Source of the DNA: an uncultured Pseudomonadota bacterium
GTDB taxonomy: Bacteria > Pseudomonadota > Alphaproteobacteria > UBA3830
DNA length: 48,374 nt
NCBI GenBank assembly: GCA_902796155.1
Contig: CADBNZ010000035.1
Span: forward strand, 1 to 48,374
Direction of reading: 5' to 3'
Shown here: piece after piece, positions 8,036 through 48,300 of the stretch
How the letters are laid out: every line of letters begins with the position of its first letter
Position numbering within the stretch: the first letter of the stretch is position 1
Program-made: the position numbers and the translations under genes
The notes under the pieces: model-generated
Told to the model about the DNA's origin: nothing
Seen by the model: the letters and a program-made list of their open reading frames with translations, nothing else
The model's database searches: none

Positions 8036-8085
8036 AACAACAATGACCCGTTATAATTTGTAAAATCTATTGTCCAACTAGTTAC

Positions 8086-13790: not shown

Positions 13791-14726
13791 TTAATATATC
13801 GCCCTGTATATCTCTTCAAAGATTTTGAACCTAACATGATATTTTTCAGCGAACAGCGGAATAGCTTTTGCGGCAAATGCTCCTTCTGCCAATGGTCCCT
13901 TCCAGCTGTCTAACGTTCCGCCGTTTGCCAGATGTTCTCCAAATAAGCCATTTCTTGATTGTTCACTTGTGCACGTAAGTATTATGTCGCCAATGCCTCC
14001 CAACTCAAAAAACGTTTCTTTCTTTCCGTCCATCGCAACAGCTAGTGCTGCCATTTCTTCCACACCTTCCACTATGAATTTGGCAATAGCATTATTTCCG
14101 AGTTTCGCGCCACGTTTCATCCCGCATCCTATTGCAAGGATATTTTTGAATGCTCCGGCTATTTGCAGACCGATATAATCGGAAATCGGCTTAATTGTGC
14201 AATTAGATGACGACAAATGCTCAGCAATTTCAGTCGCCATATCCATATTTTTACCGGCCAAATTAACGCCAAAAGGCAATCCGCGAACTACTTCGCTGGC
14301 AAACGAAGGCCCCGAAAAAACGAAAAGCTCGTTATCTAATATATCGCTTACCATTTCGCTAATCAGTCGGGCATTTTCTGTATCAACTCCTTTGGAGCAC
14401 AGAATAACAGGCACTTTTATTTCATTTTGTTTTATTAAGTTGCAAACAGTAATAACAGCACCAACGGGGACGGTAATAAACACAATTTCGGCGTCTTTTA
14501 TGACCGAATAATCCATATCGCAAGAAAGATTAGCACTCAAAGGCGTATTACCTAAAACTTTGCTGATATGCAAGCTGTTTATGTCGTCTTTTATCTCTTC
14601 TGAATCCGTAATAAGGGCTATTTTTTCCGCACAGTCGCTAATGCTTTGAGCAATTGCGGTTCCATAACATCCCGCTCCGATAAAACCGATTTTTTTGTAA
14701 GATTTTTCATAAGAATTACAACTCAT
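13791..14726 (-). CDS. gpsA: NAD(P)-dependent glycerol-3-phosphate dehydrogenase
   Basis: Reduces dihydroxyacetone phosphate to sn-glycerol-3-phosphate for phospholipid synthesis. The Rossmann loop IGFIGAGCYGTAIA replaces the common GAGAWGTALA but keeps the glycines. The blocks LCSKGVD, FSGPSFASEV and the lysine region GAFKNILAIGCGM are present. At 312 residues it is nearly full length, perhaps slightly short at the C-terminus. I chose the ATG opening MSCNSYEKS; the frame is open for 12 more hydrophobic codons that look non-native. It supplies the substrate for PlsY and PgsA encoded elsewhere in the window. Confidence 0.93.
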   Translation of the reverse strand: MSCNSYEKSYKKIGFIGAGCYGTAIAQSISDCAEKIALITDSEEIKDDINSLHISKVLGNTPLSANLSCDMDYSVIKDAEIVFITVPVGAVITVCNLIKQNEIKVPVILCSKGVDTENARLISEMVSDILDNELFVFSGPSFASEVVRGLPFGVNLAGKNMDMATEIAEHLSSSNCTIKPISDYIGLQIAGAFKNILAIGCGMKRGAKLGNNAIAKFIVEGVEEMAALAVAMDGKKETFFELGGIGDIILTCTSEQSRNGLFGEHLANGGTLDSWKGPLAEGAFAAKAIPLFAEKYHVRFKIFEEIYRAIY

Positions 14727-14825: not shown

Positions 14826-16673
14826 ATGCATTTATTAAAAAAAATAGCAGATTTTTGTAAAAAAGAGCTCGAATTAGCTCTTGAAGGATTTAAAAGGCTT
14901 CCAGAGACTTTGAAAAAAGACTTTAAAGTTCTGTCTATACCAACAGATTTCTTATCGCATGAACAAGGTGAGCATATTTACAACCTTGCTGCCTTATTGG
15001 TGCCTTATACAGTTGTCTCGTTGCTCATTTATCCGAAGTTTTCGCTGTATCAGTTTTTTCAGGAAATTTTCTCTCTGCTATGCATATACATTGCGATTTT
15101 CTTTTGGTTTATGGATAAAATTTCGCACATTTCAAGATACAGAATAGTTCTTGGTGTTACAGCTTGTGCCATTCCCATAATTTTTTTGAATAATTCATTC
15201 GCTGTTGCTCTGGTAAGCCTTGGTTTTATCGTTTTCGTTGAATTTGTGTGTATCGAATACATGCGAGGATGCACCCTATTTTCCGAAAAAATCCCAGTTT
15301 ACGTTGTTTGTGGAGACACCGTAGAAGCGGAAATGGTAAAAAGCTCTTTGGGAAACGAATATAAGATACTAAAACTCATAATTGCAGATTTCGAGAAAGT
15401 AAAAAAGCTCAGAAAAAAGCTGAATCGTTTCAATATGATTTCATTTTTCCCGTTTCCACGACGGATTCTATATTTTTCCAGGAATCAAGATATAGCAACG
15501 TTGCTCAAACTCGTTGATATTTCTTCAGAATTTTCTATACCGCTATTCGAAATAAAAGAAAACGGTACTAATTTCAGTATTGCCCCCATTTCCATCAAAA
15601 ATTTTGATTCTGTAGAAGTTTTGCCTCAAGAAAAAAACATGCTTGCGGAAACTTTCAAAAATAAAAGCGCGTGGATTTTCTACGATGGTAAAAAGTGCAT
15701 TTTTGATTTAATCTGCGCTCTATCTGAAGCCGCAAATCTTGTCGTATTTTGTATGACCGAACGCTTAATGCGAGAAGTAGAAACAGAATTAGCAAAAAAG
15801 CCTTCTGAAAAAATTCACAAAATAAAGATCGCCGATAAGAATCTTTTTAATTCAACAGATCCTAAACCGGATGTTTTATTTTTCAATATGCCTTTGCTGC
15901 GATTAGACTCAAGCGAAGATAATTTGAAAGAAGCTGTTGCAAAAAATGTTATTGGCACTTCCGAAATAATAGATATAGCTCAAAAGCTGAAAATAAAGTT
16001 CGTGTTTATGCTGTCCACAATGGAAGCATTCGACACAGAAAATTGGATTGGAGCGACGCAAAGATTAGGAGAGCTTGCCGTACAGTGCGCAGGGACAAAA
16101 AAGACGCAGACGAAATTTCGTATAATAAGGCTTCCAAATTGCATTACAGATCCTGCTGGCTTATTCGATGAAATCGTCGAATCGATAATGAATGGACGCA
16201 ATATTGAGACTACAAAAAGTAACATCAACATATATTGCAGTCGTGATGAGATTTTTCATCCTCTTATTAAATTAGTTTCATATACATTAAGAGATTCATA
16301 CATTTTGTCGGACATATATTCCATAATTCCTGCAAATAAATTGAAGAACATCGACAGTATTGTTGATATCGCATGCAAATTGCTTGGTATGAGGATGTAT
16401 AAGGATGTAAAATTCTCGCCTGCTGATCTTGTTATTTCATTGAATGAACATTTGTCCGAAATGCTTGAAGAAACTGATATTGATCCGGCTGTAGTACGTA
16501 CTAGATTTACGGCAACGGCACTAAAATCTCGTGAAGCACCATCATGGACGTTCGAACAGCTGAATAAAATGTCAGCTCGTGACGTGATAGCATCTGTCTT
16601 TCAAGGGCTGAAAGAGAAAGAAAAGACGAAAAACAGCACAACACGTCGTGGCAACAGTACGAATAATAAGTAG
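14826..16673 (+). CDS. Membrane CapD/WbpM-like protein with degenerate dehydratase domain
   Basis: A 615-residue protein laid out like the polysaccharide-biosynthesis CapD/WbpM family. About four membrane helices lie between residues 50 and 150, then a CoA-binding-like domain (PVYVVCGDTVEAEMV, about 160-260), then an SDR-like domain (about 285-560). The segments EAVAKNVIGTSEIIDIAQ and ENWIGATQRLGELAVQ align by eye with the family's EAVKTNVLGT and TNVMGATKRLAE. However the glycine-rich NAD loop is gone (AWIFYDGKKCIFDL stands there), the STDK block reads STMEA, and the family MxxxK pair reads IxxxQ. It therefore looks like an inactive scaffold or a divergent enzyme. It is divergent from gpsA, and an antiporter follows. 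Confidence 0.7.
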   Translation: MHLLKKIADFCKKELELALEGFKRLPETLKKDFKVLSIPTDFLSHEQGEHIYNLAALLVPYTVVSLLIYPKFSLYQFFQEIFSLLCIYIAIFFWFMDKISHISRYRIVLGVTACAIPIIFLNNSFAVALVSLGFIVFVEFVCIEYMRGCTLFSEKIPVYVVCGDTVEAEMVKSSLGNEYKILKLIIADFEKVKKLRKKLNRFNMISFFPFPRRILYFSRNQDIATLLKLVDISSEFSIPLFEIKENGTNFSIAPISIKNFDSVEVLPQEKNMLAETFKNKSAWIFYDGKKCIFDLICALSEAANLVVFCMTERLMREVETELAKKPSEKIHKIKIADKNLFNSTDPKPDVLFFNMPLLRLDSSEDNLKEAVAKNVIGTSEIIDIAQKLKIKFVFMLSTMEAFDTENWIGATQRLGELAVQCAGTKKTQTKFRIIRLPNCITDPAGLFDEIVESIMNGRNIETTKSNINIYCSRDEIFHPLIKLVSYTLRDSYILSDIYSIIPANKLKNIDSIVDIACKLLGMRMYKDVKFSPADLVISLNEHLSEMLEETDIDPAVVRTRFTATALKSREAPSWTFEQLNKMSARDVIASVFQGLKEKEKTKNSTTRRGNSTNNK

Positions 16674-16714
16674 CAAGTAATAGTATTTGAATAATAAATA
16701 GTTTTGAGGAAGAA

Positions 16715-17995
16715 ATGTCAGCCAAGAAAATGGGATTTTGGGCAGTTTTCGCGATAGTATTCGGTAGCCAAATAGGGTCAGGCATATTCATGTTGCCGTC
16801 TGTCCTAGCTCCTTACGGAATGTTCGGAATATATGGATGGTGCTTTGCTGGACTCGGTGCCATTCTGTTGGCATTTATTTTTTCTGAGCTGTGCTCACGA
16901 TATCCGCAAACAGGCGGTCCGCACATATATATAAAGAAAGAGTTCGGAATGATTCCAGCATTCTTTATAGGATGGGCATATTGGCTGGTTTCATGGATAA
17001 GCACATCCGTTGTTATTGTATCAGCTGTAGCTTATTTGAATCCTTTCTTCGATAATCCGTCTTCGAATTTTAATTTAGCGTTGGAAATTGCCCTACTACT
17101 CCTCATAACCGCACTTAACTGCAAGAGCGTAAAATTATCGGGGCAAGTCGAGTTTGCATTAACTCTTTTAAAATTTATTCCTTTTGTTGTGGTGCCGATT
17201 ATACTTCTTCAAAGTTTTGATTCATCTTGTATTGCGATGTCTGAAGAGCTGGCGTCTATTCCTTCACAAAAATTAGCCAGCATGGTGACAATATTGTGTT
17301 TCTGGGGATTCATAGGCGTTGAGTGCGCGACAACTCCGGCTGGTTCTGTTCGAAATCCGGGAAAAACCATACCAAGAGCAATAATTTTAGGGACATGCTC
17401 CGTTGCGCTGGTATATTTCGTGAATAATGCGGCAGTTATGGGAGTTGTTCCAAGCGCGATTTTGGCTCAAAGTACTGCCCCTTTTGTGGACGCCATTAAT
17501 ACTGTCGCAGGAAAAAACGTATCATACTTACTGTCTGCAGTAGCATCTATCGTTTGCATAGGTACACTTAACGCATGGGTTTTAACATCTGCGCAAATAT
17601 CTCTCGGATTGGCTGAAGATAAGCTGCTTCCTGCTTTTTTCGCAACCAAAAATGAAGAAGACTCACCGTATATCAGTGTGCTAATCAGTAGTTTGGGCCT
17701 GATTCCGATATTAATTTTAACGAAACAAGAAAGTTTTTCGGAACAAATCAGCTATATAATTAATTTTTCCGTCATTGTCTTCTTAATTGTGTATATCGCT
17801 TGCTGCTCAGTGTATTTGAAACTCATGCTAAAGGAAAAAAACACCGCAAAAATTTTCATAGGACTTATTTCAATAGCCTTTTGCTTGCTCGCCATAGCAG
17901 ATTCACCGATAAGAGCGATTATTGACTCGACTCTCTTCTTTGTGAGCGGCTGTGCGATTCTTCCTTCCGTCCCATTTATGCGATCTCGAAAATAA
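16715..17995 (+). CDS. APC family amino-acid permease/antiporter (AdiC/PotE-like)
   Basis: A 426-residue inner-membrane protein with about 12 hydrophobic helices. The first helix carries the substrate-binding glycine motif GSQIGSGIFMLP, as in AdiC-type arginine/agmatine antiporters (GxxxGSGxF). ELCSRYPQTGGPHIYIKKEFG is the conserved helix 2-3 region, quoted only in part here: RYPQTGGPHIY. The block GVECATTPAGSVRNPGKTIP matches the helix 6-7 loop. A ribosome site GAGGAAG lies just before the ATG. Intracellular bacteria often use such antiporters for host amino acids; the exact substrate is unknown. Confidence 0.88.
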   Translation: MSAKKMGFWAVFAIVFGSQIGSGIFMLPSVLAPYGMFGIYGWCFAGLGAILLAFIFSELCSRYPQTGGPHIYIKKEFGMIPAFFIGWAYWLVSWISTSVVIVSAVAYLNPFFDNPSSNFNLALEIALLLLITALNCKSVKLSGQVEFALTLLKFIPFVVVPIILLQSFDSSCIAMSEELASIPSQKLASMVTILCFWGFIGVECATTPAGSVRNPGKTIPRAIILGTCSVALVYFVNNAAVMGVVPSAILAQSTAPFVDAINTVAGKNVSYLLSAVASIVCIGTLNAWVLTSAQISLGLAEDKLLPAFFATKNEEDSPYISVLISSLGLIPILILTKQESFSEQISYIINFSVIVFLIVYIACCSVYLKLMLKEKNTAKIFIGLISIAFCLLAIADSPIRAIIDSTLFFVSGCAILPSVPFMRSRK

Positions 17996-18093
17996 AAAAA
18001 ATTTTTCGCAAAAAAATCGCATTGTTAATTCTTTAGTAACTTTAATAGTGTTTACTACAAGTATTGATAATATTTGTTATAGGGAGTTTGAAG

Positions 18094-23600: not shown

Positions 23601-24968
23601 TTATTTTTTATTATTCGACAGCGATTGTTTTGTTTCTTTAATTATCTCTTTTCGCAAAGCAATTAACGCGACAATATTCGGGATGGCCATTAATCCGATA
23701 ACGATATCCGCCACTATAAATGCTGTTTTTATGTTCAAGAAAGGTCCGATGACGACAAAAAACATAAACAACATCCTATATGGTGTTATAGCTTTGGTGT
23801 TAAAAACGTACTGTACGCATTTCTCTCCGTAGTAGTTCCATCCGATTATTGTTGTAAACGCAAAAAACAGGATACTGATATTAACAATATGCTTTCCTAA
23901 TGCCGGAACATGCAATCCTGCTCCAAAGGCGTGTGCGGTCAACAATGTTTCAGGAATAGTGCAGGTATGGCTTAATATTTGCGTTTCTTCCGCAGTTGTA
24001 ACCAGCACAAGTCCTGTTATTAAGCATATTATTATCGAGAGAAACGCTCCAATCATGCATATCAATCCTTGCTCTGTCGGATGTCTGACTTTTGCTGCGG
24101 CAGAAGCTATAGCTGCACTTCCCAGTCCTGCTTCGTGACAAAATACTCCTCGACTCATTCCGATTTGTATAGTGTGGATAATGCAAGCTCCGATTCCACC
24201 TCCAACCATAGCTTGAGGAGCAAAGGCTTCATGAATAATCAAATATAAGGCATGCGGAATAGCGTCTATTCTAAGGAAAAGTATAATAATAGCTACTCCT
24301 ATGTAAAATATACTCATGATAGGAACGACTTTTTCCGCTATTTCCGCAATCCTGTGAATCCCTCCGAAAATTACCATCGCAACAATAGCGGCAAGCACAA
24401 CCGAGGTTACATAAGTTGGTATTCCGAATGATGTAGCTGCCGCATTTATCGAGTTCGTTTGCGCCAGTGTTCCTATTCCTATAAGTGCGACTCCGACTCC
24501 GAAAATGGCGAACATTTTCGCTAATAATTTACTTCCTAATCCTTTTTCTATGTAATACATTGGTCCCCCGGCTATTTTTTTATCGCTTCCGATGATGCGA
24601 TACTTTATAGCCAAAAATCCTTCGCAATACTTTGTAGCCAAACTGAAAAAAGAGGATAAGATCAGCCAAAATAGCGTGCCTACTCCTCCTACTGAAATTG
24701 CAACAGCGATTCCAACAATGTTTCCTGTTCCCAAAGTTGCGGATAAAGCCGTACATAACGATGCAAAATTCGATATGTCTCCCATTATACTGATATTTTC
24801 AGATCGTTTTTTGGAGTTGAGAATGTACCCAAACGCTCTTTTTATATGGCGGATCTGTACAAATTTTAATTTGAATGAAAAATAAACTCCAACGCCGAAA
24901 AGAGCGATTAATAAAGGCAGACTCCAAACAAAATCGCAAATTGATTTAACAAAATTTTCCATATTCAT
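23601..24968 (-). CDS. AGCS sodium:alanine/glycine symporter, downstream copy
   Basis: A 455-residue Na+/amino-acid symporter of the AGCS (AgcS/DagA) family with about 11 membrane helices. Family blocks: ATLGTGNIVGIAVAIS, KIAGGPMYYIEKGLG, SRGVFCHEAGLGSAAIA. It is the second of two tandem genes and is closely similar over its whole length to the upstream copy. Its start overlaps the stop of the upstream copy by 23 bases. Both lie downstream of a glycine riboswitch, which supports glycine (and probably alanine) as the substrate. The start is the ATG at 24968 or the one two codons later. Confidence 0.93.
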   Translation of the reverse strand: MNMENFVKSICDFVWSLPLLIALFGVGVYFSFKLKFVQIRHIKRAFGYILNSKKRSENISIMGDISNFASLCTALSATLGTGNIVGIAVAISVGGVGTLFWLILSSFFSLATKYCEGFLAIKYRIIGSDKKIAGGPMYYIEKGLGSKLLAKMFAIFGVGVALIGIGTLAQTNSINAAATSFGIPTYVTSVVLAAIVAMVIFGGIHRIAEIAEKVVPIMSIFYIGVAIIILFLRIDAIPHALYLIIHEAFAPQAMVGGGIGACIIHTIQIGMSRGVFCHEAGLGSAAIASAAAKVRHPTEQGLICMIGAFLSIIICLITGLVLVTTAEETQILSHTCTIPETLLTAHAFGAGLHVPALGKHIVNISILFFAFTTIIGWNYYGEKCVQYVFNTKAITPYRMLFMFFVVIGPFLNIKTAFIVADIVIGLMAIPNIVALIALRKEIIKETKQSLSNNKK

Positions 24969-26355
24969 CGTTATTCTCCGACATAATTGAGTCTATAACG
25001 AGTGTTTTATTCGTTTCCTCGATTATTTCTCTTCTCAGGGCAATTATCGCGATAATATTCGGAATAGCCATTAAGCCGATTACAATATCCGCTAAAATAA
25101 ATGCTGTTTTTATGTTCAAAAAAGGTCCGACAACGACAAAGAATATATATAATACTTTGTACGGCATTATTGCTTTTGTACTGAAAGCATATTGCACGCA
25201 TTTTTCTCCGTAGTAATTCCAACCGATTATGCTCGTGAATGCGAAAAACAATATGCTGGTGTTAACAATATGATTTCCTAATTGAGGAAGATGTAATCCT
25301 AATCCAAAAGCGTGCGCAGTTAATAGTGTCTCTGGAATGTTATAACCGCGACTTAATATTTGCGTTTCTTCCGCAGTTGTAATCAAAACAAGTCCTGTTA
25401 TTAAGCATATAACAATCGAAAGAAACGCTCCAATCATGCATATTAATCCTTGCTCTGTCGGATTTTTGACTTTTGCTGCAGCTGAAGCTATAGCCGCACT
25501 TCCTAGCCCCGCTTCGTGGCAAAATATTCCGCGACTCACTCCGATTTGAATCGTATGTATAATGCAGGCACCAATTCCTCCTCCAACTACAGCTTGAGGA
25601 GCAAATGCTTCGTGAACAATCAAATATAAGGCATTAGGAATAGTCTCTATTTTCAGAGCCAGTATAATGATAGCAGCTCCTATATAAAGTACACTCATAA
25701 TAGGAACGACTTTTTCTGCTATTTCAGCAATTCTGTGAATCCCTCCGAAAGTTACCATCGCAACGATAACAGTGAGCACAATCGAAGTTACGTAAATTGG
25801 TACTCCGAATGATGTTGCAGCAGCTGCTATAGAATTAGTTTGCACTAACGTTCCTGTTCCTACTAGAGCGACTATTGCTCCGAGAACGGCAAACATTTTC
25901 GCTAATAATTTGCTTCCCAAGCCCTTTTCTATGTAATACATTGGTCCTCCGGCCATTTTTTTGTCGCTTCTGATGATGCGATATTTGATGGCCAGAAGCC
26001 CTTCGCAATATTTTGTGGCTAAACTGAAAAATGACGATACAATTAACCAAAATAACGTTCCGGCTCCTCCAACAGAAACAGCAACGGCTATCCCAACGAT
26101 ATTTCCCGTGCCCAATGTAGCGGCCAATGCTGTGCACAACGATGCAAAATTCGATATGTCTCCTATTATGCTGCCATTTTCGGCTAGTTTTTTGGAATTA
26201 AGAATATGCCTGCATGCTCTTTTGGCGTGACGAATTTGTAAAAAATCTAACTTAAACGAGAAATAAACTCCGACACCAAAAAGAGCGATTAATAAAGGAA
26301 AACTCCAAATAAAATCGCAAATTACTTTAGCAATATTTTCTATATCCATATCCAT
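24946..26355 (-). CDS. AGCS sodium:alanine/glycine symporter, upstream copy
   Basis: A 469-residue AGCS symporter, paralogue of the next gene, with the same blocks (ATLGTGNIVGIAVAVS, KMAGGPMYYIEKGLG, SRGIFCHEAGLGSAAIA). It is the first gene after the glycine riboswitch. Its C-terminus is about 14 residues longer than that of its neighbour. These extra residues (IMSENNDEYGKFC) are encoded by the duplicated ribosome-binding leader of the downstream copy, so the original stop seems to have been lost at the duplication joint. The GGAG of TCGGAGAAT upstream of the ATG is a good ribosome site. Confidence 0.94.
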   Translation of the reverse strand: MDMDIENIAKVICDFIWSFPLLIALFGVGVYFSFKLDFLQIRHAKRACRHILNSKKLAENGSIIGDISNFASLCTALAATLGTGNIVGIAVAVSVGGAGTLFWLIVSSFFSLATKYCEGLLAIKYRIIRSDKKMAGGPMYYIEKGLGSKLLAKMFAVLGAIVALVGTGTLVQTNSIAAAATSFGVPIYVTSIVLTVIVAMVTFGGIHRIAEIAEKVVPIMSVLYIGAAIIILALKIETIPNALYLIVHEAFAPQAVVGGGIGACIIHTIQIGVSRGIFCHEAGLGSAAIASAAAKVKNPTEQGLICMIGAFLSIVICLITGLVLITTAEETQILSRGYNIPETLLTAHAFGLGLHLPQLGNHIVNTSILFFAFTSIIGWNYYGEKCVQYAFSTKAIMPYKVLYIFFVVVGPFLNIKTAFILADIVIGLMAIPNIIAIIALRREIIEETNKTLVIDSIMSENNDEYGKFC

Positions 26356-26530: not shown

Positions 26531-26627
26531 AGTCTCTCCAAAGTCTTGTCCAGCAACGATACTTTTGCCTGAGATTTTTAACCCTTCGGCGGATCAATCA
26601 AGATTTCCCTTTATGACCTCTCTCCCG
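26531..26627 (-). promoter_or_regulatory. Glycine riboswitch (single gcvT-type aptamer)
   Basis: The minus strand shows, in the right order, the conserved parts of a glycine aptamer: CGGGAGAG at the 5' side, GCCGAAGGGTTAAAAA, TCTCAGGCAAAA, then TTGCTGGACAAGACT and the closing GGAGAGAC. The closing GGAGAG can pair with an upstream CTCT-type partner only weakly, as in many gcvT aptamers. One aptamer is seen rather than a tandem. It lies about 175 bases upstream of two AGCS symporters, a known target class. After it, a small hairpin (GATTCATTTGAATC, about 26493-26506) and the downstream leader may form the switch. Whether it turns expression on or off is not decided by the sequence. Confidence 0.88.
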
Positions 26628-26650
26628 ATGCCTTCATCCAATTTTGCGGT

Positions 26651-28657: not shown

Positions 28658-29120
28658 TAATTGCAAAAAATTAATTGCGCTTGTTGATGCGGATTTCGGT
28701 GTTTCAAAAAATGAAAATATTCCATGGACTTTTGATGACGATCTGAAATTTTTTAAAGAAGTAACGCAAAATTTCGCTATTATTATGGGAAGAAAAACTT
28801 TTTTTTCTATTCCAAATGCTCCTCTAAAAAATAGAATAAATTGCGTAATTTCGCGAACAATAAAAAAACTTGATGGCGCGCTTGTTTTTAATTCGCTTGA
28901 GATGGCTTTGGAAGAATACAAAAACGCATGGATAATCGGTGGGGCGGAAATTTATAACTATGCTCTGAAAAATAATTTGGTAGATTATGCTGTTATAACC
29001 CAAATTCATAAATCATTTGGAGCGGATAAATTTATTGAACAATCATTATTGAAATCATTTAAAAAACAAAAATTATTTACAGCAGAAAATTACGATATTA
29101 CCAGCTATCTCCGAGCTTGA
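28611..29120 (+). CDS. folA: Dihydrofolate reductase
   Basis: NADPH enzyme that makes tetrahydrofolate. Motifs: [18 protein letters not shown] (N-terminal substrate region), the acidic catalytic residue in [24 protein letters not shown], and [15 protein letters not shown]. The only standard start in frame is the ATG at 28611, inside folE. It gives about 17 residues in front of the usual N-terminus and a 47-base overlap; a non-standard start further in is possible. It converges with the secretion-like operon end 29098, overlapping it by 23 bases. Confidence 0.93.
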
Positions 29121-29835
29121 TTTTTTCAATTTTTCCATCTTTTTCTATAAAAATCGCTCTTTCAATGATGTCTTTTATTTCATATTCATCGATAATATCT
29201 CCGATACATTTCCATTCGTCATCTACATATACTTTTGTTTTATCTATAATTCCTCGCAAAAAGTGTTTTTTCTCGTCATCATCTTTAGGAAATAATTGCA
29301 AACGACTTGCGTAAAATTTTTTTCTTTTTTCTGGTTCAATATTTATTGATTTGTCGAGATATTTATATTCGAATAAACGGCATTTCAGATAAGTTATGAA
29401 ATTTCGCTTATCTTTTTTTACGATTTTTATATTATCAAAAATAATGTTTGTTATATAAGTTTTGCAAAAAACGATATATATCTTGTTCTCGTTCTGTGGA
29501 AAAATATATTTCTATATCCGATTCTTTAAATAATTTTTGATCATTTTCTTTGCTTTTAAATTTCACTTTTTTTATGTGTGTTTTCTTCGAAATGCGAGCA
29601 AGAGTTTTTTTGATACTTTGATTTTTTTTTTAATTACGTCTTCTTTTGTTTTGCTAAAGTTGAATTTTGTATTATGGATCTTGTTGAATAATTTTGTAAA
29701 TTCAATCTGTTTTTCTGTAATTTGCTTTTTTTCATTTTCCAAATTACAAATTTCATTTCTTTTTGCTAAACACAAGAGCATCAATATAATTAAGATTACA
29801 GAAAATACGCAGATATTTATTTTATTTTTATGCAT
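29098..29835 (-). pseudogene. GspM/PilO-like + GspC/PilP-like reading frame, broken by two frameshifts
   Basis: Three minus-strand frames form one continuous protein-like sequence of about 245 residues. Frame one (29835 to about 29605) has one membrane helix (INICVFSVILIILMLLCLA) and a coiled coil. Frame two (about 29605-29455) reads HIKKVKFKSKENDQ and STEREQDIYRFLQNLY. Frame three (about 29455-29098) reads ITNIIFDNIKIVKKDKR and ends in an LRGIIDKTKVYVDDEWKCIG type domain resembling the PilP/GspC periplasmic repeat. The first break lies at the A-runs (T10 at 29622-29631 or T7 at 29605-29611), the second at the tatata tract 29452-29457. It follows the L-like gene with an overlap. Assignment to M/O and C/P families is by fold-like pattern, not by strong identity. 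Possibly two fused genes. Confidence 0.6.
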
Positions 29836-31034
29836 ATTTCTACACCGTATTTTGTTTCCTCTGAATCGTCGAGATCTTCATATTCGTTTTCTCTTAAATC
29901 GATTCTTTTTATTTCTATACTCTTCATTTTTTTTAATAGATAAAATTGTTGCTCATTAACTGAACATATTATTTTCGCAATATCTTTTTCAATGGATATT
30001 TTTTCAGCCTTTTGCTTGTTCAATATTTTCGCAATTTTTTCAATTAAACAGATCGGATTTTGCATTTGTTGAGATATTTCTGTGAATTTGCGAATTTCAT
30101 CTATATTTTTGCAGTTAATTCTTGCGGAAAAAGTTCGTGATTTATCTCTTACAAAAATGTTTAGTTTATCTTTTTCAATTTCTATTGAATTTTTCAAACG
30201 AGCAGTTTCATCATATAAATAACACAGAAGAATAAAGCAAATAAACGAACAAACGGCCAGAAATGTAAGAATTTCATTATGATAATCGCAAAAAAATTTC
30301 TTTATATAATTGTCTTTTGAAAATTGCGGTTTAATTTTTTTATCATTTGCGATTAATTCAACAAGAGTTGTTTCTATATCACTTTTTGTTAGAAATGGAT
30401 TGATGATATTTACATTTTCTATATACAAATCATCTACAAAAGATATAATTTTTATATCGTCTTTTAAGCCTTCTCTTGTTAAAAATCGTATTGTTTCGAT
30501 AACTTTTCTTTCTGTTTCATTTAGATCGGAAAATAGCCTTGAATAGACAATTCCATTGCCTATTCCTGCTACTATTTTTACGCCACTGGATTTGTGTTCC
30601 GCAACATAAAGCCACCAAGTCGTGTCATTAATTTCGATTACGGATTTACATAATTTATATATCGCATGTTCTATCAAAAATATTTCTTTTTTTATTATTT
30701 TTTGAAACAGACTTTTATCATTGATTACACATGTTTGAATATAAAAATTATCTTTGGATAATAACGAAAATTTTTCTTTATTTATGAGATGCGCGATTTC
30801 ATTTTCAGCTAAAATCTTCTTTTTGCATTGTAAACTTTTCAATGCGTTATATATGTTTGAGTTTTTTAAATAATCTAATGAAAAATCGACACAACTTCTA
30901 TCTAAAATTATTTGATTTGTATTTTTATGATATGTTTCGAAAAATTCATCATAGCTTACGAAAATAGACGGGACTATTTCCGATTCGGAAGGAAAAAGTT
31001 TTACGTTTTTTTCTCCGATTAATGCGAGCATCAT
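29817..31034 (-). CDS. GspL / PilM-PilN-like inner-membrane assembly protein
   Basis: A 405-residue intact frame. The N-terminal ~250 residues are cytoplasmic, with WWLYVAEHKSSGVKIVAG resembling the actin-like domain of GspL/PilM-type proteins. One membrane helix follows (EILTFLAVCSFICFILLCYLY, about 255-276; only part quoted). A coiled coil and an alpha/beta periplasmic domain (about 300-405) resemble PilN. This would recruit the ATPase to the inner-membrane platform. The ATG overlaps the preceding gspF stop as ATGA, so they are translationally linked. The sequence is very rich in K, I and N. The function call rests on position, layout and weak motifs. Confidence 0.6.
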   Translation of the reverse strand: MMLALIGEKNVKLFPSESEIVPSIFVSYDEFFETYHKNTNQIILDRSCVDFSLDYLKNSNIYNALKSLQCKKKILAENEIAHLINKEKFSLLSKDNFYIQTCVINDKSLFQKIIKKEIFLIEHAIYKLCKSVIEINDTTWWLYVAEHKSSGVKIVAGIGNGIVYSRLFSDLNETERKVIETIRFLTREGLKDDIKIISFVDDLYIENVNIINPFLTKSDIETTLVELIANDKKIKPQFSKDNYIKKFFCDYHNEILTFLAVCSFICFILLCYLYDETARLKNSIEIEKDKLNIFVRDKSRTFSARINCKNIDEIRKFTEISQQMQNPICLIEKIAKILNKQKAEKISIEKDIAKIICSVNEQQFYLLKKMKSIEIKRIDLRENEYEDLDDSEETKYGVEICIKIK

Positions 31035-32206
31035 GCACCTGCGATTTCAACATAACTGTAAATCGGGAAAAATAGCCTGCAAATAATTAATACAAAAATC
31101 ATTCCCGTAAAAAGAGTTAATCCAACACTTAAAAATTGTCCCAGCGATTTTATATCCAGAATTATTTCTTCATATTGATGATTGCTCATATGAGCAAAAC
31201 TTGAAGATAAATCATTACTTTCTTCTCCGATTCCTATTGCGGATATAACAGAAGCAGAAATAAACTTCATTTCTGAAAATGATTCAGAAATTGAATATCC
31301 TTCAACAATTTTTTCTCGTACTTCCAAAAGTTCGTTTTTTATGTTTTTTATTTTTATGGCCGAAATTGCTATATCCATTGCTTCTATAAAATCCAATTTC
31401 GCGTCTAACGCTATATGATTTTACAAAGCTGCCAAAAATTTGTTTTTATTATTAATGAACCGATTTTCGGAATTTTTAAAACTAATCCCATAATAAAAAA
31501 TCGACATTTTTCACTTACTATACACAGTAAAATAATAGAAAAGATAAAAGGCAAAAAACAAATGAAACATTGGAAAATTAATGGAAGATAATCGATAACA
31601 AATTGTGTAATTAATGGGATTTCATTTGCTCCGAAATTTTGAACTAATGATGATATCTGCGGACCAAGTAACGTGATACTAAAAACCAATACAAAAATAG
31701 CGATGCATGCCAAGAAAACAGGATAGGCGATAGCTCTTTTTATATTATTTTTCCATTCGGACTGCAGTTTTAAAAATTTTAAAATGTTAGCAATAATATC
31801 AGAAATTTTTCCTGTTTGTTCCGCTGATTTTAGCAAGCCGATTATAACGGAATCGAAAATTTTATCGCATTTTTCGAACGCTTCTCCAAGTGAAGAGCCG
31901 TTTCTTAAATCGATTAAAATCGCGGCCAATGAAGATTTTAATATTTTGCTCCCGTGGAGTTCTAAGAAAGATTCTATTGCTTCATTTATTTTTACTTTGC
32001 ATTTTAGTTGCAAATCTATATGCAGAAAAAATCAATAAATCTTCAATGCTGACTTTTTTATTTGATATAGATATCGGAGTTATTTTTAAAGGGCAGTTTT
32101 TTCGTGAATGTATAGATTCATATGCGGCTTTATAGTTTTCAGCAAATATCGAGCCTGAAATTTTTTCTCCGCTGTCAGATAGGGCTTCGTATTTATATAA
32201 AAGCAT
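31031..32206 (-). pseudogene. gspF: GspF/PilC-like membrane platform protein, broken by two frameshifts
   Basis: Three consecutive frames together encode a full GspF of about 395 residues. Part one (32206-31982): LLYKYEALSDSGEKISGSI, the GspF opening. Part two (about 31990-31411): SLGEAFEKCDKIFDSVIIG and LLKSAEQTGKISDII, then helices IAYPVFLACIAIFVLVFSI. Part three (about 31411-31031): IGIGEESNDLSSSF and the last helix MIFVLIICRLFFPIY. The first shift is at a five-A run (31989-31993) where loss of one A restores the frame. The second is at a tatat tract (31412-31416) where loss of AT restores it. It overlaps gspE by 14 bases. Either a pseudogene, a slippage-rescued gene, or assembly error. 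Confidence 0.8.
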
Positions 32207-33689
32207 TGCCGAAGACCCTTTCTATTTCTTTTTTATTTGTAAGGTTATTGTCAATCGCTTTTTTGGCGGATTGTGTGAATGTTTGCGTTGGTAAGCAAGT
32301 TGTTACATCGTTTGTTAAAAGCAAATTTTGTTTTAATTGATCAGGAAAAGACATATATTCGGTTACAGGAAATCGCCCGGAATGACCGTTTGTGTATCTC
32401 ACCAGTCGTTGCGAAAATATTCCGAGCAACGAAGGCATGAAATCGGATAATTTTAACCCCAAATCAACGAGTCGCCTTAATGCATCGCTTGGCGTTGACG
32501 CATGCAATGTCGCTAACACAAGTCGTCCTGTCAATGAAGCGCGGATTGCTGTTGCTGCGGTTTCCTCATCCCTTATTTCGCCGACCAACATTACATCCGG
32601 GTCATGGCGCAAAATCGCTTTTATGCCATCGGCAAACGACATTAATCCATCTTCTTTCAGTTCTAATTGTCTAATGCCTTCTATTTGATATTCAATCGGA
32701 TCTTCTAATGTAATAATGTTTATATAAGGTGATTTTATTTTGTTCACCAATGAATAAAGTGTTGTGGTTTTTCCAGATCCGGTTGGACCGACTATAAGAA
32801 AAATACCATACGGATGCGAGATAATATTTTTTAGCCACAAAAAATCTTTTTTCGCGAATCCCAGTTCTACTAAGTTTTTTATTCCGCTGCTTAGATCAAA
32901 AATTCTTATGGTGATATTTTCTCCGAAAGAACCACAAACGGTAGCGACTCTTAAATCGATTGTTTTCCCTGCTAGATATATTCTCGCGTGTCCGTTTTGT
33001 GCTCTGCGATTTTCGGTTATATCCATTTTTGAGATTATTTTTATTTTTGATTTTATTCGACTCCACGAATCAAAATTAATTCGGGTTATTTCTTTCAGGA
33101 TTCCATCTATTCGGAAACGTACTCCAACGAAATTTTCGGAAGGTTCGAAATGAATATCGCTCGCTTTTGCTTCAATCGCTTCGAAAATAATTTTGTTTAA
33201 TAAAAATAGAGGATCATTTTTTACATTATCATCGGAATTGCATTTTATTAATTCCAAAAACCGCAAAATTTCACTTTCTTTGGCTACGAAAAATTCTACT
33301 TTTTTATCTTTGCATGCGGAAATAATTTTATCGATATTTCTTATATTGCCCGGATCGGATATAGCGACTTTTACGATGTAATTATCCGAATAAAAAGGGA
33401 CAGAAAGAGTTGAAATTGCGATTTCTTTATCTAATAAATCGAGTGTATCTTGCGGAATATACAAAAATTCCATTTTTACGGGTTTTATTGAATAAATTTC
33501 GGACAAAACCAGCACTAAATCATCTTCGCTTATGAAACCTAATTTTACGGCAAGCTGGCCAAACAGATAGTTATTGTCTTTTTTCTGCGCACGCAAAACC
33601 ATTCCAACTTGCTCTTTTGTAAGCAAATTTTTATCTATGAAAACATCACCGATACTTTTAAACAAATAACCACTAGGTAACATATGCAC
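32193..33689 (-). CDS. gspE: GspE/PilB-type secretion or pilus assembly ATPase
   Basis: A 498-residue hexameric traffic ATPase. The N-terminal domain (about 1-150) is GSPII_E-N-like (GQLAVKLGFISEDDLVLVL). The catalytic domain has SDIHFEPSENFVGVRFRIDG, Walker A VGPTGSGKTTTLYSL, the Asp box TLEDPIEYQIEGIRQ, Walker B DVMLVGEIRDEETA and the His box LATLHASTP. The C-terminal tetracysteine zinc loop of most GspE/PilB proteins is missing: QRLVRYTNGHSGRFPVTE runs straight on. The start is GTG at 33689 with AGGAG 6 bases before it, or the ATG two codons later. It is the first gene of the operon and follows topA by 80 bases. Confidence 0.93.
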   Translation of the reverse strand: MHMLPSGYLFKSIGDVFIDKNLLTKEQVGMVLRAQKKDNNYLFGQLAVKLGFISEDDLVLVLSEIYSIKPVKMEFLYIPQDTLDLLDKEIAISTLSVPFYSDNYIVKVAISDPGNIRNIDKIISACKDKKVEFFVAKESEILRFLELIKCNSDDNVKNDPLFLLNKIIFEAIEAKASDIHFEPSENFVGVRFRIDGILKEITRINFDSWSRIKSKIKIISKMDITENRRAQNGHARIYLAGKTIDLRVATVCGSFGENITIRIFDLSSGIKNLVELGFAKKDFLWLKNIISHPYGIFLIVGPTGSGKTTTLYSLVNKIKSPYINIITLEDPIEYQIEGIRQLELKEDGLMSFADGIKAILRHDPDVMLVGEIRDEETAATAIRASLTGRLVLATLHASTPSDALRRLVDLGLKLSDFMPSLLGIFSQRLVRYTNGHSGRFPVTEYMSFPDQLKQNLLLTNDVTTCLPTQTFTQSAKKAIDNNLTNKKEIERVFGNAFI

Positions 33690-33768: not shown

Positions 33769-36150
33769 TTATTTATCTTTCGTTTTTTTCAATGTTATGA
33801 GTTTTATTGCGTCTTCTAAAGTCATGTTCATGAAAAGATCATTGTCCTTTATGGATGTAAACTTTCCTTTGAACAGAACATACGGGCCATATCTGCCAAT
33901 TCCGACTGTAACATCTTCGCCGTCATGCTGGCCGATGATTTTCGGAAGATTAAGTAACCAACTGGCAGCTTTCAGATCGATATTTTTCGGATCCAGAAAT
34001 CTTGGAATCGAAGCGCGAACAGGTTTCTCTTTTTCTGTTTTCTTTTTTCCTTTTGCTGCTGGCTGTTGCGCGTCTACTTTTTCTGTATCTTTTTGAAGAT
34101 ACAAACCATATGGTCCTTTACGAATTGTAATTTTCGAATTATCGACAGGATCCATTCCGATAGTTTTCGGATATTCGGAGACTTCTTCGGTAATCTCTGC
34201 TGAAGATTCGGAAACATCGGTGTTAATATCCAATTTCCTCACATATTTGCACTCGGGATAATGCGAGCAGCCTATAAATGAACCGAATCGACCGATCTTT
34301 AGGCTTAATTCGCCGCTTTTACATTCAGGACATGTGCGATCGACTTCACCATTTTCATTTGTTTTAAATAAAATTGTTTTCATTGATTCATTGAGTCGAT
34401 CAATCACATCTGAGACAGTTACGTCTTTTGTTTGTTCTACGTTATTGTGAAAACCATTCCAAAAATCATTGAGAACATCGAGTTTCGATTTTTTTCCATT
34501 TGAAACATCATCGAGAGACTGTTCCATATCTGCGGTAAAGCCATACTCCAAATATTTCATGAAGAAATTTGTTAAAAATGAAGTAACTAGTCGACCGCGA
34601 ATTTCAGGAACAAAGTATTTCTTCTCCAGTTTCACATATCCACGATCTTGCAAAACTTGCAGAATAGTTGCATAGGTAGATGGACGACCGATTCCCAATT
34701 CCTCAAGTTTTTTTACAAGGCTTGCTTCGGAAAATCTTGGCGGAGGTGTAGTAAAATGTTGTAAAGAATCAAGATTATCGAGTTTTGTCGTTTCATCTTT
34801 CGCCAGAGTAGGTAAATATCCTTCTTCGTCTTCATCTTTTTCTGAATTGTTCGTGTCATCTTTACCTTCCGAATATACTTTCAGAAAGCTTTCAAATTTT
34901 AAAGTGTTTTCTGTGGCTCTGAAAATATTTCCGGCATTTGTTGTACTGGAAATGTCAACTTGAACTTGATCGAATTCGGCAGATGACATTTGTGAAGCGA
35001 CTGCCCTTTTCCAAATCAACGTATATAACTTCAGCAAATCGTTATCGATTTTTCCTGCGATGGATTCCGGAATTATACTTGCATCAATTGGACGTATAGC
35101 TTCATGAGCTTCTTGTGCGTTTTTTACTTTTGTTTGATAGAAACGTGGTTTTTCTGGAATAAAATTACTCCCATATTTGTCGGATATTACGTTTCGAATT
35201 GTTTCGATCGCTTCATTAGAAAGATTCACGCTGTCGGTTCTCATGTATGTAATTAGTGCGCGCGTTTCTTTTCCTATACTTACTCCTTCATATAATTTTT
35301 GCGCTACTTGCATGGTTTTTTTTGCGCTGAAACCGAGCTTGCGAGATGCTTCTTGCTGCAAAGTCGATGTAATAAAGGCGGGAGCAGGATTGCGTTTTAC
35401 CGTTTTTTTATTGAGCGATGAAACGAAATATTTTTGTTCTAATAAATTATCTCGTACCGATTCTGCTTGCTCAGCGTTTTTTATGGAAAATTTCTCTAAT
35501 TTCTTTCCTTCAAAAGTGATTAATTTTGCTTTGAAGATTTTCTTTTCTTTGTTCTCGAATTTCGCTTCAACCGTCCAAAATTCTTCTGCTTTAAATGCCT
35601 CGATTTCTGCTTCTCGTTCCACGACGATTCTTAGAGCAACCGATTGGACTCGTCCTGCCGACTTACTTCCTGGAAGTTTTCTCCACAAAATAGGCGATAG
35701 TGTAAAACCGACCAGATAATCGAGTGCACGTCGAGCCAAATACGAATCAACCAGGCGGCCATCTATATCACGCGGAGCTTCAATCGCTTTTAAAATTGCG
35801 TTTTTTGTAATCTCATGAAAAACAATTCTTCTGAAAGGTACCTTCAAACTATGTTTATCATTAAGTACTTCTTTTATATGCCACGAAATAGCTTCTCCTT
35901 CGCGATCAGGGTCGGTGGCGAGAAGTAGTTCATCGCAAGATTTCAGCTGTTGCGCTATGTCTTTTACGCATTTTTTGCCTCGGTCACTTATTTCCCAAAC
36001 CATAGAAAAATTTTCTTCCGGCTTAACGCTTCCGTTTTTCGATAAAAGGTCGCGAATATGACCATAGCTAGCCAGAACTTTGTAATCTGAACCAAGATAT
36101 TTTCCTATTGTTTTGGCTTTCGCAGGAGACTCTACAATAACTAAACGCAT
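33769..36150 (-). CDS. topA: DNA topoisomerase I
   Basis: Type IA topoisomerase that relaxes negative supercoils. TOPRIM motif RLVIVESPAKAKTI and LLATDPDREGEAISWHI; the active tyrosine in ALITYMRTDSVNLS; and HEAIRPIDASI. The C-terminus has one zinc-finger domain (CPECKSGELSLKIGRFGSF, ending CSHYPECKY) and two zinc-less topoisomerase C-terminal repeats (RKGPYGLYLQ, GIGRYGPYVLFKGKF). I chose the ATG giving MRLVIVES with GAGG 9 bases upstream; it starts 12 bases after the dprA stop. About 793 residues, normal for alphaproteobacteria. Confidence 0.96.
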   Translation of the reverse strand: MRLVIVESPAKAKTIGKYLGSDYKVLASYGHIRDLLSKNGSVKPEENFSMVWEISDRGKKCVKDIAQQLKSCDELLLATDPDREGEAISWHIKEVLNDKHSLKVPFRRIVFHEITKNAILKAIEAPRDIDGRLVDSYLARRALDYLVGFTLSPILWRKLPGSKSAGRVQSVALRIVVEREAEIEAFKAEEFWTVEAKFENKEKKIFKAKLITFEGKKLEKFSIKNAEQAESVRDNLLEQKYFVSSLNKKTVKRNPAPAFITSTLQQEASRKLGFSAKKTMQVAQKLYEGVSIGKETRALITYMRTDSVNLSNEAIETIRNVISDKYGSNFIPEKPRFYQTKVKNAQEAHEAIRPIDASIIPESIAGKIDNDLLKLYTLIWKRAVASQMSSAEFDQVQVDISSTTNAGNIFRATENTLKFESFLKVYSEGKDDTNNSEKDEDEEGYLPTLAKDETTKLDNLDSLQHFTTPPPRFSEASLVKKLEELGIGRPSTYATILQVLQDRGYVKLEKKYFVPEIRGRLVTSFLTNFFMKYLEYGFTADMEQSLDDVSNGKKSKLDVLNDFWNGFHNNVEQTKDVTVSDVIDRLNESMKTILFKTNENGEVDRTCPECKSGELSLKIGRFGSFIGCSHYPECKYVRKLDINTDVSESSAEITEEVSEYPKTIGMDPVDNSKITIRKGPYGLYLQKDTEKVDAQQPAAKGKKKTEKEKPVRASIPRFLDPKNIDLKAASWLLNLPKIIGQHDGEDVTVGIGRYGPYVLFKGKFTSIKDNDLFMNMTLEDAIKLITLKKTKDK

Positions 36151-36161
36151 AAAAGACATCC

Positions 36162-37202
36162 TCAATTTCGGGAATCTGGTGTCAGACAGACGCGCTGCCC
36201 ATGTACTCGAGCTATTTTACCTGACAATTCCAGCTCAAGCAACGCTGTTAACACCTCCCGAGGGGATACTTTAATAGATGAAATTAATTTGTCAATAGTT
36301 ATTGGAACTAAACTTAACGCTTCTAAAATTGTGTTGCGCGTTTTTTCTAGATCTTGCTCAGAAATTTTCGCATTGTAAGGCTCTTTTTCTTCAAAAAGGT
36401 GTGATTGGTGTATGATTTTTCGTCCTTCAAGGGCATCTAATACATCCTGCGCATTTTGAATAAGCGTTGCGCCTTCTTTGAGAAGAGAATTACAGCCGAT
36501 ACTTCTTGGATCCATAGGAAATCCGGGAACAGCAAAAACTTCTCTGTTGTATTCGAGGGCGAATTTCGCCGTTATTAAAGAGCCTGAATTTGCAGCTGCT
36601 TCTACGACAACAGTTCCATAACTCATTCCAGCAATAATGCGATTGCGTCGTGGAAATAATTGCGCTTGCGGAGATGTGCCATACGGTGTTTCTGTAAAGA
36701 TTGCGCCTTTTTCAGCAATTTGCTTATACAATTTCGAATTTTCCTGCGGATAAACTATGTCAATTCCTCCTGCGAGGATAGCAATAGTTCCTGATTCGAG
36801 ACTTCCTTGATGTGCAGAGGTATCTATGCCACGAGCCAATCCGGAAACGATAACGACGTCATTTTTTCCGAGTTTTTCAGCAAGAGAAAGACAGAATTTA
36901 TTTGCGTGAATCGATGAATTTCGAGAACCAACAATGGAAATCATATTTTTTTTGTAAAATTCCATGGTTCGTTCTTTATTTCCAAAAAAAGTCAGAACAG
37001 GTAGAGGATCCGGTATATTACGGAGCAGAGGAGGGTAGAGTTCATCTTCAAGAAAGACCATTCTTGCGCCGAATTTTTTCAATTTTTTGAGTTCTTCAAA
37101 AACTTCGTCTTCGCTTCGTAATTCGATTTTTTTTAGTGCAGATTTGGATAATACCGGAATTGCGTGCAGGGCTTCAATTCCGCTGCCATACAGCTGAATC
37201 AT
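36162..37202 (-). CDS. dprA: DNA processing protein DprA/Smf
   Basis: RecA loader on incoming single-stranded DNA during natural transformation; also kept in non-competent bacteria. The Rossmann-like DprA domain shows ISIVGSRNSS, VSGLARGIDTSAHQGSL, ILAGGIDIVYPQENS, and IIAGMSYGTVVVEAA. A C-terminal winged-helix (DML1-like) domain covers about residues 285-340. At 346 residues it is normal. It precedes topA closely, the conserved alphaproteobacterial pair. With the pilus-like operon just downstream, a role in DNA uptake is conceivable. Confidence 0.94.
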   Translation of the reverse strand: MIQLYGSGIEALHAIPVLSKSALKKIELRSEDEVFEELKKLKKFGARMVFLEDELYPPLLRNIPDPLPVLTFFGNKERTMEFYKKNMISIVGSRNSSIHANKFCLSLAEKLGKNDVVIVSGLARGIDTSAHQGSLESGTIAILAGGIDIVYPQENSKLYKQIAEKGAIFTETPYGTSPQAQLFPRRNRIIAGMSYGTVVVEAAANSGSLITAKFALEYNREVFAVPGFPMDPRSIGCNSLLKEGATLIQNAQDVLDALEGRKIIHQSHLFEEKEPYNAKISEQDLEKTRNTILEALSLVPITIDKLISSIKVSPREVLTALLELELSGKIARVHGQRVCLTPDSRN

Positions 37203-46876: not shown

Positions 46877-47059
46877 ATGAATATAGGCGTAAGTGAAAGT
46901 GAAGAAGAATATTTTTCGATAGAGGATATTATCGTGTCATATTCAAACATAGAAATTACGCATGTAAATGATAATAAAGCGCCTGTTGAAGTCATAGCTA
47001 AGAAAGCGATTATATGGTTGCTTTTGGCAAGCATGATTGCAGGGATATTTTTTATTTAA
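46877..47059 (+). CDS. Small tail-anchored protein, unrecognised
   Basis: A 60-residue protein I do not recognise. The first 40 residues are acidic and polar (SESEEEYFSIEDIIVSYS). The last 18 form a single hydrophobic helix (IIWLLLASMIAGIFFI) preceded by lysines, so it is probably inserted with its N-terminus in the cytoplasm. GTAAGGAAG precedes the ATG at good spacing, which argues that it is real. It lies between bamD and rimI. Confidence 0.6.
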   Translation: MNIGVSESEEEYFSIEDIIVSYSNIEITHVNDNKAPVEVIAKKAIIWLLLASMIAGIFFI

Positions 47060-47075
47060 TTTTTTACGATTTTAT

Positions 47076-47568
47076 ATGATTTTTTTGAGAAATATATCAG
47101 TAGGCGACAATATCGTTCTCGCAAAGATTCATCGAGCAAGTTTTTCTGATGGATGGAGCGAAAGCAGTTTTCAAAATATGCTTATGGACCCGACTTTTTC
47201 GGATTTATCGTTGGACATGAAAAAATGGGCAAAAGCAAGATTGCGGTTTTATCCTTTGCCGAAGAATTTTAGAGGAAATTGAGATTATCACACTTTGCGT
47301 GCTACCTGAACACAGAAGATTTGGCCTCGGAAAACTGCTTATTATCGAAACAATTAAGCAGGCAGGACTGCTTTTGAAGCAAGAATCTGATTATTTGGAA
47401 TCTATAAAAATTTTTTTGGAAGTCGCTGAAAATAATGTGACTGCTATTCATTTATACAGCGCTTTTGGATTTGAAAAAATCTCAAGACGATCGCAATATT
47501 ATCGCACACCAAACGGAAATATCGATGCGCATATTATGGTGCTTAAAGTCTGCGATGAACAAGGGTAG
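47076..47568 (+). pseudogene. rimI: Ribosomal protein S18 alanine N-acetyltransferase (RimI-like), one frameshift
   Basis: GNAT acetyltransferase split over two frames. The first part (47076-47282) has IHRASFSDGWSESSFQNML. The second part, read in another frame from about 47226, has CGFILCRRILEEIEI, TLCVLPEHRRFGLGKLLI (acetyl-CoA loop), LEVAENNVTAIHLYSAFGF and RRSQYYRTPNGNIDAHIM. Together they form one RimI of about 163 residues. Loss of one A from the six-A run 47220-47225 restores a single frame. No ribosome site is seen before the ATG at 47076, so the start is uncertain. Confidence 0.78.
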
Positions 47569-47601: not shown

Positions 47602-48300
47602 TTATTCATTTTTAGCGGGAAATAACCCCGGTTTTGGAGTGAATACTATTCGGTAAGTGAAAAAGTTGTTAGTCATGCCATCTATGCTTTTGTATGTTTT
47701 CGGAGTTAGTATGAAAAATCCCAATTGGCTTTTTTTGAAGGAGTTATTAATTTTTCTGTAACAACATTCTACGCAAACTCGTTCGTCGCCATCCTTCTCA
47801 CAAACCAAATCTGGGCTTTTTGCTTCTACGTATGCTGGTGTTCTTGTTGTTACAGAGCCGCAATTTCTATTTGTTTCCATAGGTGAAGTACCCGCACTAG
47901 TAGTTGCATAACAGTCTTGATGTTGATAACTATTACTGTTAATTCGTTTTACCCACACATAACTTACAGCATAATAAAGTCCAAATGACCATGGATTGCA
48001 CATAGACTTTGTATGAAAAAAATTCAAGCAACTCGCCCATGCTATTCTTCCGAAATCATCCTTGGTTAAGGTCTTATCTGATCTGTTGTTTGCAACTTGC
48101 TGAATCATACTTGCGGCAAGATACGTAGACATTTTTACTTTATTTTTCAGTTCATAAAATCGGTAATGATCGTTTACAAGGAATAAAAGGGTAATACAAA
48201 TAGGGATAGAAAATGCAAACTCAATTAAAATACCGCCCCTGTGGCGTTTGTGAAGGCGTAAAAGCCTGTGTAAGAGGGCGAATCCTCTCCCATATTTCAA
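47602..48300 (-). CDS. TadE-like pilus assembly protein
   Basis: A protein of at least 232 residues. A basic N-terminus (RLLRLHKRHRGG) leads into one TadE-type membrane segment, GGILIEFAFSIPICITLLFL, with the conserved glutamate that marks a pseudopilin-like processing site. A cysteine-rich periplasmic part follows (NRNCGS, CEKDGDERVCVECC). No usual start codon with a ribosome site is seen: a TTG at 48300 is possible, but the frame stays open without a stop to the right edge (48374), so the gene may begin outside the window. It fits a Tad system together with the Flp pilin near 18 kb. Confidence 0.75.
   Translation of the reverse strand: MKYGRGFALLHRLLRLHKRHRGGILIEFAFSIPICITLLFLVNDHYRFYELKNKVKMSTYLAASMIQQVANNRSDKTLTKDDFGRIAWASCLNFFHTKSMCNPWSFGLYYAVSYVWVKRINSNSYQHQDCYATTSAGTSPMETNRNCGSVTTRTPAYVEAKSPDLVCEKDGDERVCVECCYRKINNSFKKSQLGFFILTPKTYKSIDGMTNNFFTYRIVFTPKPGLFPAKNE

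Follow-up and report, generated by a model that had tools for sequence, protein, structure and literature searches.

What kind of machine is built by a few overlapping genes that resemble parts of both secretion systems and pili, when the remaining parts do not lie beside them? The question is raised by an operon at positions 29098-33689 of a window of 48,374 nt (the whole stretch of DNA analysed), from contig C35 (CADBNZ010000035.1) of GCA_902796155.1, a metagenome-assembled genome (MAG) of 1.07 Mb and 79% completeness from a gut bacterium with a small genome, referred to below as G000. The operon very probably encodes the motor and inner-membrane platform of a pilus-like machine, a minimal type IV filament apparatus whose secretin and pilins would be encoded at a remote locus. 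Taken together, the two loci amount to such a minimal system in almost complete form.

Proteins of the operon

The operon runs on the minus strand from 33689 to 29098 and consists of four successive genes in the order E-F-L-X, overlapping by 14 bases (E/F), 4 bases (F/L) and 19 bases (L/X):

E, 32193..33689, minus strand: intact GspE/PilB-type assembly ATPase with an MshEN N-terminal domain
F, 31031..32206, minus strand: GspF/PilC-type inner-membrane platform protein, broken by two frameshifts
L, 29817..31034, minus strand: intact GspL-type protein of 405 amino acids
X, 29098..29835, minus strand: fused PilO-like and homology region (HR; GspC/GspB/PilP-type) protein, broken by two frameshifts

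A preliminary description of this DNA had already recognized the compact operon and its short overlaps, and its domain guesses (E, F, L, M/O and C/P) were right. However, it counted five packed functions, whereas the operon is genuine but holds four genes, two of which are broken in G000. F, which had been taken for an intact gene, is spread over three frames (31982-32206, 31411-32031 and 31031-31420) by two frameshifts that had been missed. The M-like and C/P-like parts were correctly placed in one reading-frame series, yet they are not separate: X is a single protein of 246 amino acids in the closest relative, G005, and is split by frameshifts in G000 (29572-29835, 29435-29629 and 29098-29511).

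The match of E to Pfam T2SSE (E=1.5e-89), accompanied by a match to MshEN (1.7e-8), supplies the GspE/PilB-class ATPase by which type IV filament systems are recognized. Subtyping by model score failed, the NCBIfam models for PilB (330 bits) and GspE (329 bits) being tied and both under their cut-offs. Relatives begin this protein at the ATG at 33683, and the G005 counterpart is 94% identical, with no indel between the two. As had been pointed out, E lacks the tetracysteine (Zn) motif (no CxxC...CxxC found). The motif is missing in G051 and in all sampled members of the families labelled here f1, f3 and f4, and kept in family f2 and the other Alphaproteobacteria examined. Decay as an explanation of this loss was rejected, since the loss is lineage-wide and common to all sampled f1 and f3 members. 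In an ATPase tree with modest support and many open forks, the order groups with G050, G058, G047 and G051, apart from the other alphaproteobacterial ATPases. The second superfamily hallmark, a GspF/PilC platform protein, is provided by F, two fragments of which match Pfam T2SSF (9.6e-17 and 1.7e-13); its best score is with GspF (149 bits), and it is intact in relatives, with 393 amino acids in G005.

Profile searches thus assigned E and F and left L and X unmatched: as a single sequence or as a family profile, neither gave a usable Pfam, NCBIfam or PDB sequence match, so that structure was needed for their identification. Structure prediction, which the preliminary description had proposed, followed by Foldseek comparison, recovered GspL/PilM folds for L and PilO and HR folds for X. 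In the AlphaFold2 model of L (pLDDT 88.3), an actin-like PilM-type cytoplasmic domain is followed by a transmembrane helix at about residues 252-290 and a PilN/GspL-type periplasmic domain at about 303-403; its best structural matches are the cytoplasmic domain of GspL (8e-8, 4pht), EpsL (1.7e-7, 1yf5) and PilM (3.6e-7, 5eou). L, which shows no indel relative to G005, is by this model a GspL-type protein with PilM-like and PilN-like parts in one chain. Such a combination had been foreseen, and the structure bears it out. What had been considered unusual about it is the normal GspL layout, as GspL always joins PilM- and PilN-type parts.

For X, the intact G005 protein was modelled (pLDDT 83.3); the model comprises a long N-terminal helix, a ferredoxin-like domain (74-158) and a C-terminal beta domain (193-241). 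The middle part resembles PilO, both in the type IVa pilus (T4aP) model (1e-4, 3jc8_Oa) and alone (2.3e-3, 2rjz). The C-terminal part resembles the HR domain of GspC (prob 1.00, TMt 0.64, 3oss) and GspB (prob 1.00, TMt 0.51, 4wfw), and no PDZ domain accompanies it. On structural grounds, X combines a PilO-like domain with an HR domain of the GspC/GspB (PilP) type.

Fusion and conservation of the module

The origin of X can be read from more distant small-genome Alphaproteobacteria, in which separate O and P genes are found in an operon E-F-L-O-P. This operon is complete in G050, G051, G174 and G259. G058 has E-F-O-P plus an unlabelled open reading frame of 418 amino acids at the L position, its O and P being detected by profiles built without G058 sequences, and partial versions occur in G194 (F-L-O-P), G219 (E-F-L-O), and G252 and G291 (L-O). 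Against the profile of the separate O proteins, the PilO part of X reaches a probability of 97% (E=1e-10), and L matches the L proteins of the split-operon genomes with a probability of 88% (E=2.8e-6). Given the separate genes in distant operons and these profile matches, X is a lineage-specific O-P fusion that occurs in family f1 as well as in G043 and G038 of family f3, and would have arisen by the joining of two formerly separate proteins. No report of an O-P fusion was found in the literature searched, the coverage of which was partial.

The four-gene module itself is strongly conserved. All 31 sufficiently complete loci of the related family carry an intact, overlapping E-F-L-X set, and the recurrence of the same genes, order and overlaps makes the operon more than a chance arrangement; the G006 contig, truncated with a stop inside L, is kept apart from these 31. 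Across the 61 genomes searched, E was found in 55 and L in 38. Those relatives whose records bear a name are MAGs of termite-gut-type Holosporaceae (the termite host being presumed from isolate codes), together with one MAG from red deer and one labelled alphaproteobacterial. In family f2 (G042, G040 and G037), none of F, L and X accompanies the E ATPase. Next to E in G042 lies a gene that joins a prepilin peptidase to an alpha/beta hydrolase (Abhydrolase_2).

A machine spread over two loci

Neither a PilQ/GspD-type secretin nor a GspG-type pilin is present within the window. The remark that none lay nearby was therefore true of this stretch, but not of the genome. Indeed, the genome-wide look for secretin, pilin and tad genes that had been advised was productive. 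Contig C34 carries an MshL-like secretin directly followed by an N_methyl pilin, with a second, weaker pilin alongside. MshL is the best family for the secretin, at 172 bits under a cut-off of 250. The first pilin is over its cut-off (N_methyl, 7.3e-6) and supplies the N-terminal GFxxxE methylation motif of the superfamily. The secretin and this first pilin are conserved relative to G005, with ratios of nonsynonymous to synonymous substitution (dN/dS) of 0.02 and 0.04, respectively. The only prepilin peptidase (A24) detected, a further hallmark of the superfamily, belongs to a Tad locus on contig C16, which also has its own secretin and CpaF; the peptidase gene is frame-broken near its C-terminus relative to G005. 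A PilT retraction ATPase, a mark of T4aP, gave no match over cut-off, either in G000 or in the other genomes of the order that were searched. A GspG-K pseudopilin set and a PDZ-bearing GspC were not found in this 79% complete MAG, in agreement with its relatives, and only the two pilins accompany the secretin.

On the Tad side belongs a TadE/TadF-like pilin gene at the end of the window (47602-48300, minus strand), which was set aside as a partner of the operon. It is a member of a large dispersed family with conserved ends and a variable middle, found also at C34:14180-14866, on C15, C42, C41 and C8, and in other places. Matching places, some of them fragments, number 15 in G000 (1.07 Mb), 33 in G005 and 52 in G008, as against 0-4 in the other genus or family members searched. 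Among 25 aligned members, 13 match Pfam TadE and 14 TadF at a loose E-value limit of 1. By analogy with the Kil/Tad pili of Myxococcus (PMC12075869), these paralogues may possibly be interchangeable Tad pilus tips.

While the domain identities and the co-occurrence of the parts are observed, we infer from them a single machine, a Tad peptidase serving both systems and a role in the cell. By analogy with PilB/PilC/PilMNOP and GspE/F/L/M/C, an E hexamer would hydrolyze ATP and drive F, which would insert mature pilins into the base of the filament. L, with its PilM and PilN parts in one chain, would couple E to the periplasm, and X, with PilO and HR in one chain, would bridge the platform to the secretin. 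A filament of the C34 pilins would then exit through the C34 MshL-like secretin. These pilins are probably processed by the Tad-locus enzyme, the sole prepilin peptidase detected. Since no retraction ATPase was found, the filament may extend only, or E may work both ways.

Several observations weigh against this reading or its parts. The operon is linked to the C34 locus by co-occurrence only. The HR part of X compares weakly with P by sequence (probability 14%, E=0.002), though it aligns at the expected place, so that the proposed equivalence is weak by sequence and leans mainly on structure and gene order. For a role in DNA uptake in particular, the ComEC channel persists in f2 genomes, whose E/F/L/X set is reduced, and no ComEA-type protein was detected. 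Lastly, as concerns the broken genes, the other breaks seen in G000 (cpaF, prepilin peptidase, VgrG-like and GNAT) are all deletions of a single nucleotide within or next to base runs, a pattern that could reflect assembly errors.

If such errors also caused the four frameshifts in F and X, the operon would be intact in the living cell, and only the claim of broken copies would be touched. This account is possible but somewhat doubtful. Relative to G005, F has lost 2 nt near 32026-32031 and 4 nt near 31418-31420, whereas X has gained 2 nt in the A10 run at 29622-29631 and lost 5 nt near 29459-29464. In each gene, the pair of indels restores the starting frame and leaves a middle stretch in another frame, with stops. 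Comparison of 43 orthologues with G005 flagged F, cpaF, the prepilin peptidase, the VgrG-like gene and GNAT as frame-broken; X is broken as well but escaped the flag of the script. On C16, cpaF (7737-9097), the prepilin peptidase (13960-14640) and the VgrG-like gene (15844-17999) have one 1-nt break each, which come either from errors in the assembly or from surface systems having decayed recently; the GNAT acetyltransferase gene in the window (47037-47565, plus strand) is broken by two 1-nt homopolymer deletions. Assembly error is possible for such 1-nt breaks; it is a poorer explanation for the multi-base indels in F and X, which are unlike them, and E and L show no indel at all. On the other hand, dN/dS between G000 and G005 (E 0.03, F 0.07, L 0.11, X 0.18) gives no sign of relaxed selection in F or X on the window branch, nonsynonymous changes not being in excess. 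This is in line with an assembly error, or else means that the genes, if dead, died very recently. F and X of G000 are thus probably a pair of very recent pseudogenes, an artefact being less likely. General decay of the operon was rejected on the basis of the same selection estimates and the 31 intact relatives.

The proposed filament may serve in DNA uptake or in contact with surfaces or hosts. Two genes lie next to the operon:

topA, 33769..36165, minus strand: neighbour outside the machine, syntenic with the operon only in the closest relatives
dprA, 36162..37202, minus strand: intact neighbour (TIGR00732, 220 bits against an NCBIfam cut-off of 191)

The operon had been described as lying directly after dprA-topA, with a role in DNA uptake or host contact imagined from it. 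The position is right, but of the loci read only those of G004 and G005, the closest relatives, have this neighbourhood, and it was rejected as functional evidence. A competence pilus, whose filament would bind outside DNA and pull it through the secretin to ComEC while DprA protects it inside, nevertheless has a chance only slightly short of even. G000 has an intact ComEC gene (on contig C56) besides DprA, and almost every relative with a genome of 0.7-1.3 Mb retains ComEC, the retention of both genes despite such reduction pointing the same way. However, a ComEA-like DNA receptor, the helix-hairpin-helix protein expected in competence, gave no HHH_3 match over cut-off in the order, PilT gave none there either, and ComEC also occurs in f2 and in class members without an E-type ATPase, which makes its co-occurrence uninformative. 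Contact or adhesion appears about as plausible as DNA uptake. A pilus that holds host or prey cells in the manner of MSHA pili is a possible, if somewhat doubtful, form of it. The affinity of the C34 secretin to MshL, the MshEN-type N-terminus of E, a peptidase borrowed from another system as for mannose-sensitive haemagglutinin (MSH) pili (PMC6668835), the presence of Tad in G000 and the gut or rumen association of the relatives all fit such a pilus, but MSH genes almost always form a single locus (PMC6668835) and there are two here.

Elsewhere in the window, a glycine riboswitch aptamer (26547-26637, minus strand) lies upstream of two tandem genes:

24946-26355: sodium:alanine symporter-type gene, downstream of the aptamer
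23601-24968: sodium:alanine symporter-type gene, second of the tandem

Comparison with known systems

The type of machine is already known; this is a compact, divergent form of it with one lineage-specific fusion. The suspicion of a reduced or divergent system thus holds as regards divergence, and most of the features that had seemed unusual resolve. With the type II secretion system (T2SS; GspC-O), the operon shares the GspL layout of L, an X that is like GspM plus the HR domain of GspC, and an F that scores best with GspF. These likenesses, including the GspC/GspB-like HR domain, would suit a reduced, protein-secreting T2SS, which is nonetheless improbable. Neither locus has a GspH-K set or a PDZ-bearing GspC, the secretin is nearer to MshL than to GspD and has only two pilins with it, and the tree separates E, albeit with modest support, from the T2SS-type ATPases of other Alphaproteobacteria. 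A full T2SS is unlikely because both the pseudopilin set and the PDZ protein are missing from the two loci. The occurrence of a complete ordinary T2SS in relatives, proposed as grounds for dropping the idea of an unusual system, is borne out by half: relatives have the same proteins intact, a secretin and pilins, but no full GspC-M set.

The minimal filament machine also has much in common with T4aP, as the ATPase, platform, PilM/N, PilO, HR/PilP, secretin and pilins of PilB/PilC/PilMNOP/PilQ all have counterparts. It differs in having no PilT/PilU, in the fusions PilM+N (L) and PilO+HR (X), and in the lost tetracysteine of the ATPase. MSH loci, for which mshA, E, G, L and M are mandatory, have no peptidase and occur alongside T2SS, T4aP or Tad (PMC6668835). 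The present system shares with the MSH pilus a secretin that is closest to MshL, though under the cut-off, an MshEN-type ATPase and the absence of a prepilin peptidase of its own in a genome with a Tad peptidase; it differs by its two loci, the fusion of PilO and HR, and an L that is a single GspL-type protein. The PilO-HR fusion represents a natural single-chain link of PilO/PilP type. It leaves a diderm filament machine with very few parts, which is helpful in structural studies and in investigating how these reduced symbionts acquire DNA or make contact with other cells.

Type IV pili are reported as mostly incomplete in Holosporales, together with a type VI secretion system (T6SS) and in some cases Tad (PMC9992710), and as patchy in Rickettsiales (PMC10847448). 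The named relatives of G000, filed as Holosporaceae MAGs, likewise combine pilus parts, T6SS and Tad, but here the alignment proteins are present, although Pfam and NCBIfam do not detect them. L, O, P and X all lack a match to the usual models and would be missed by standard annotation, which suggests that reported incompleteness can be an effect of detection and that incomplete or patchy pilus calls may need revision. The balance tips modestly toward a wider pattern, in which small-genome host- or gut-associated Alphaproteobacteria would commonly retain a type IV filament machine that is complete but hidden, and recorded as incomplete because L and O, and P or X, are missed by the models. In this order, the machine would consist of a four-gene inner-membrane module that works together with a distant secretin-pilin locus and uses the same peptidase as Tad.

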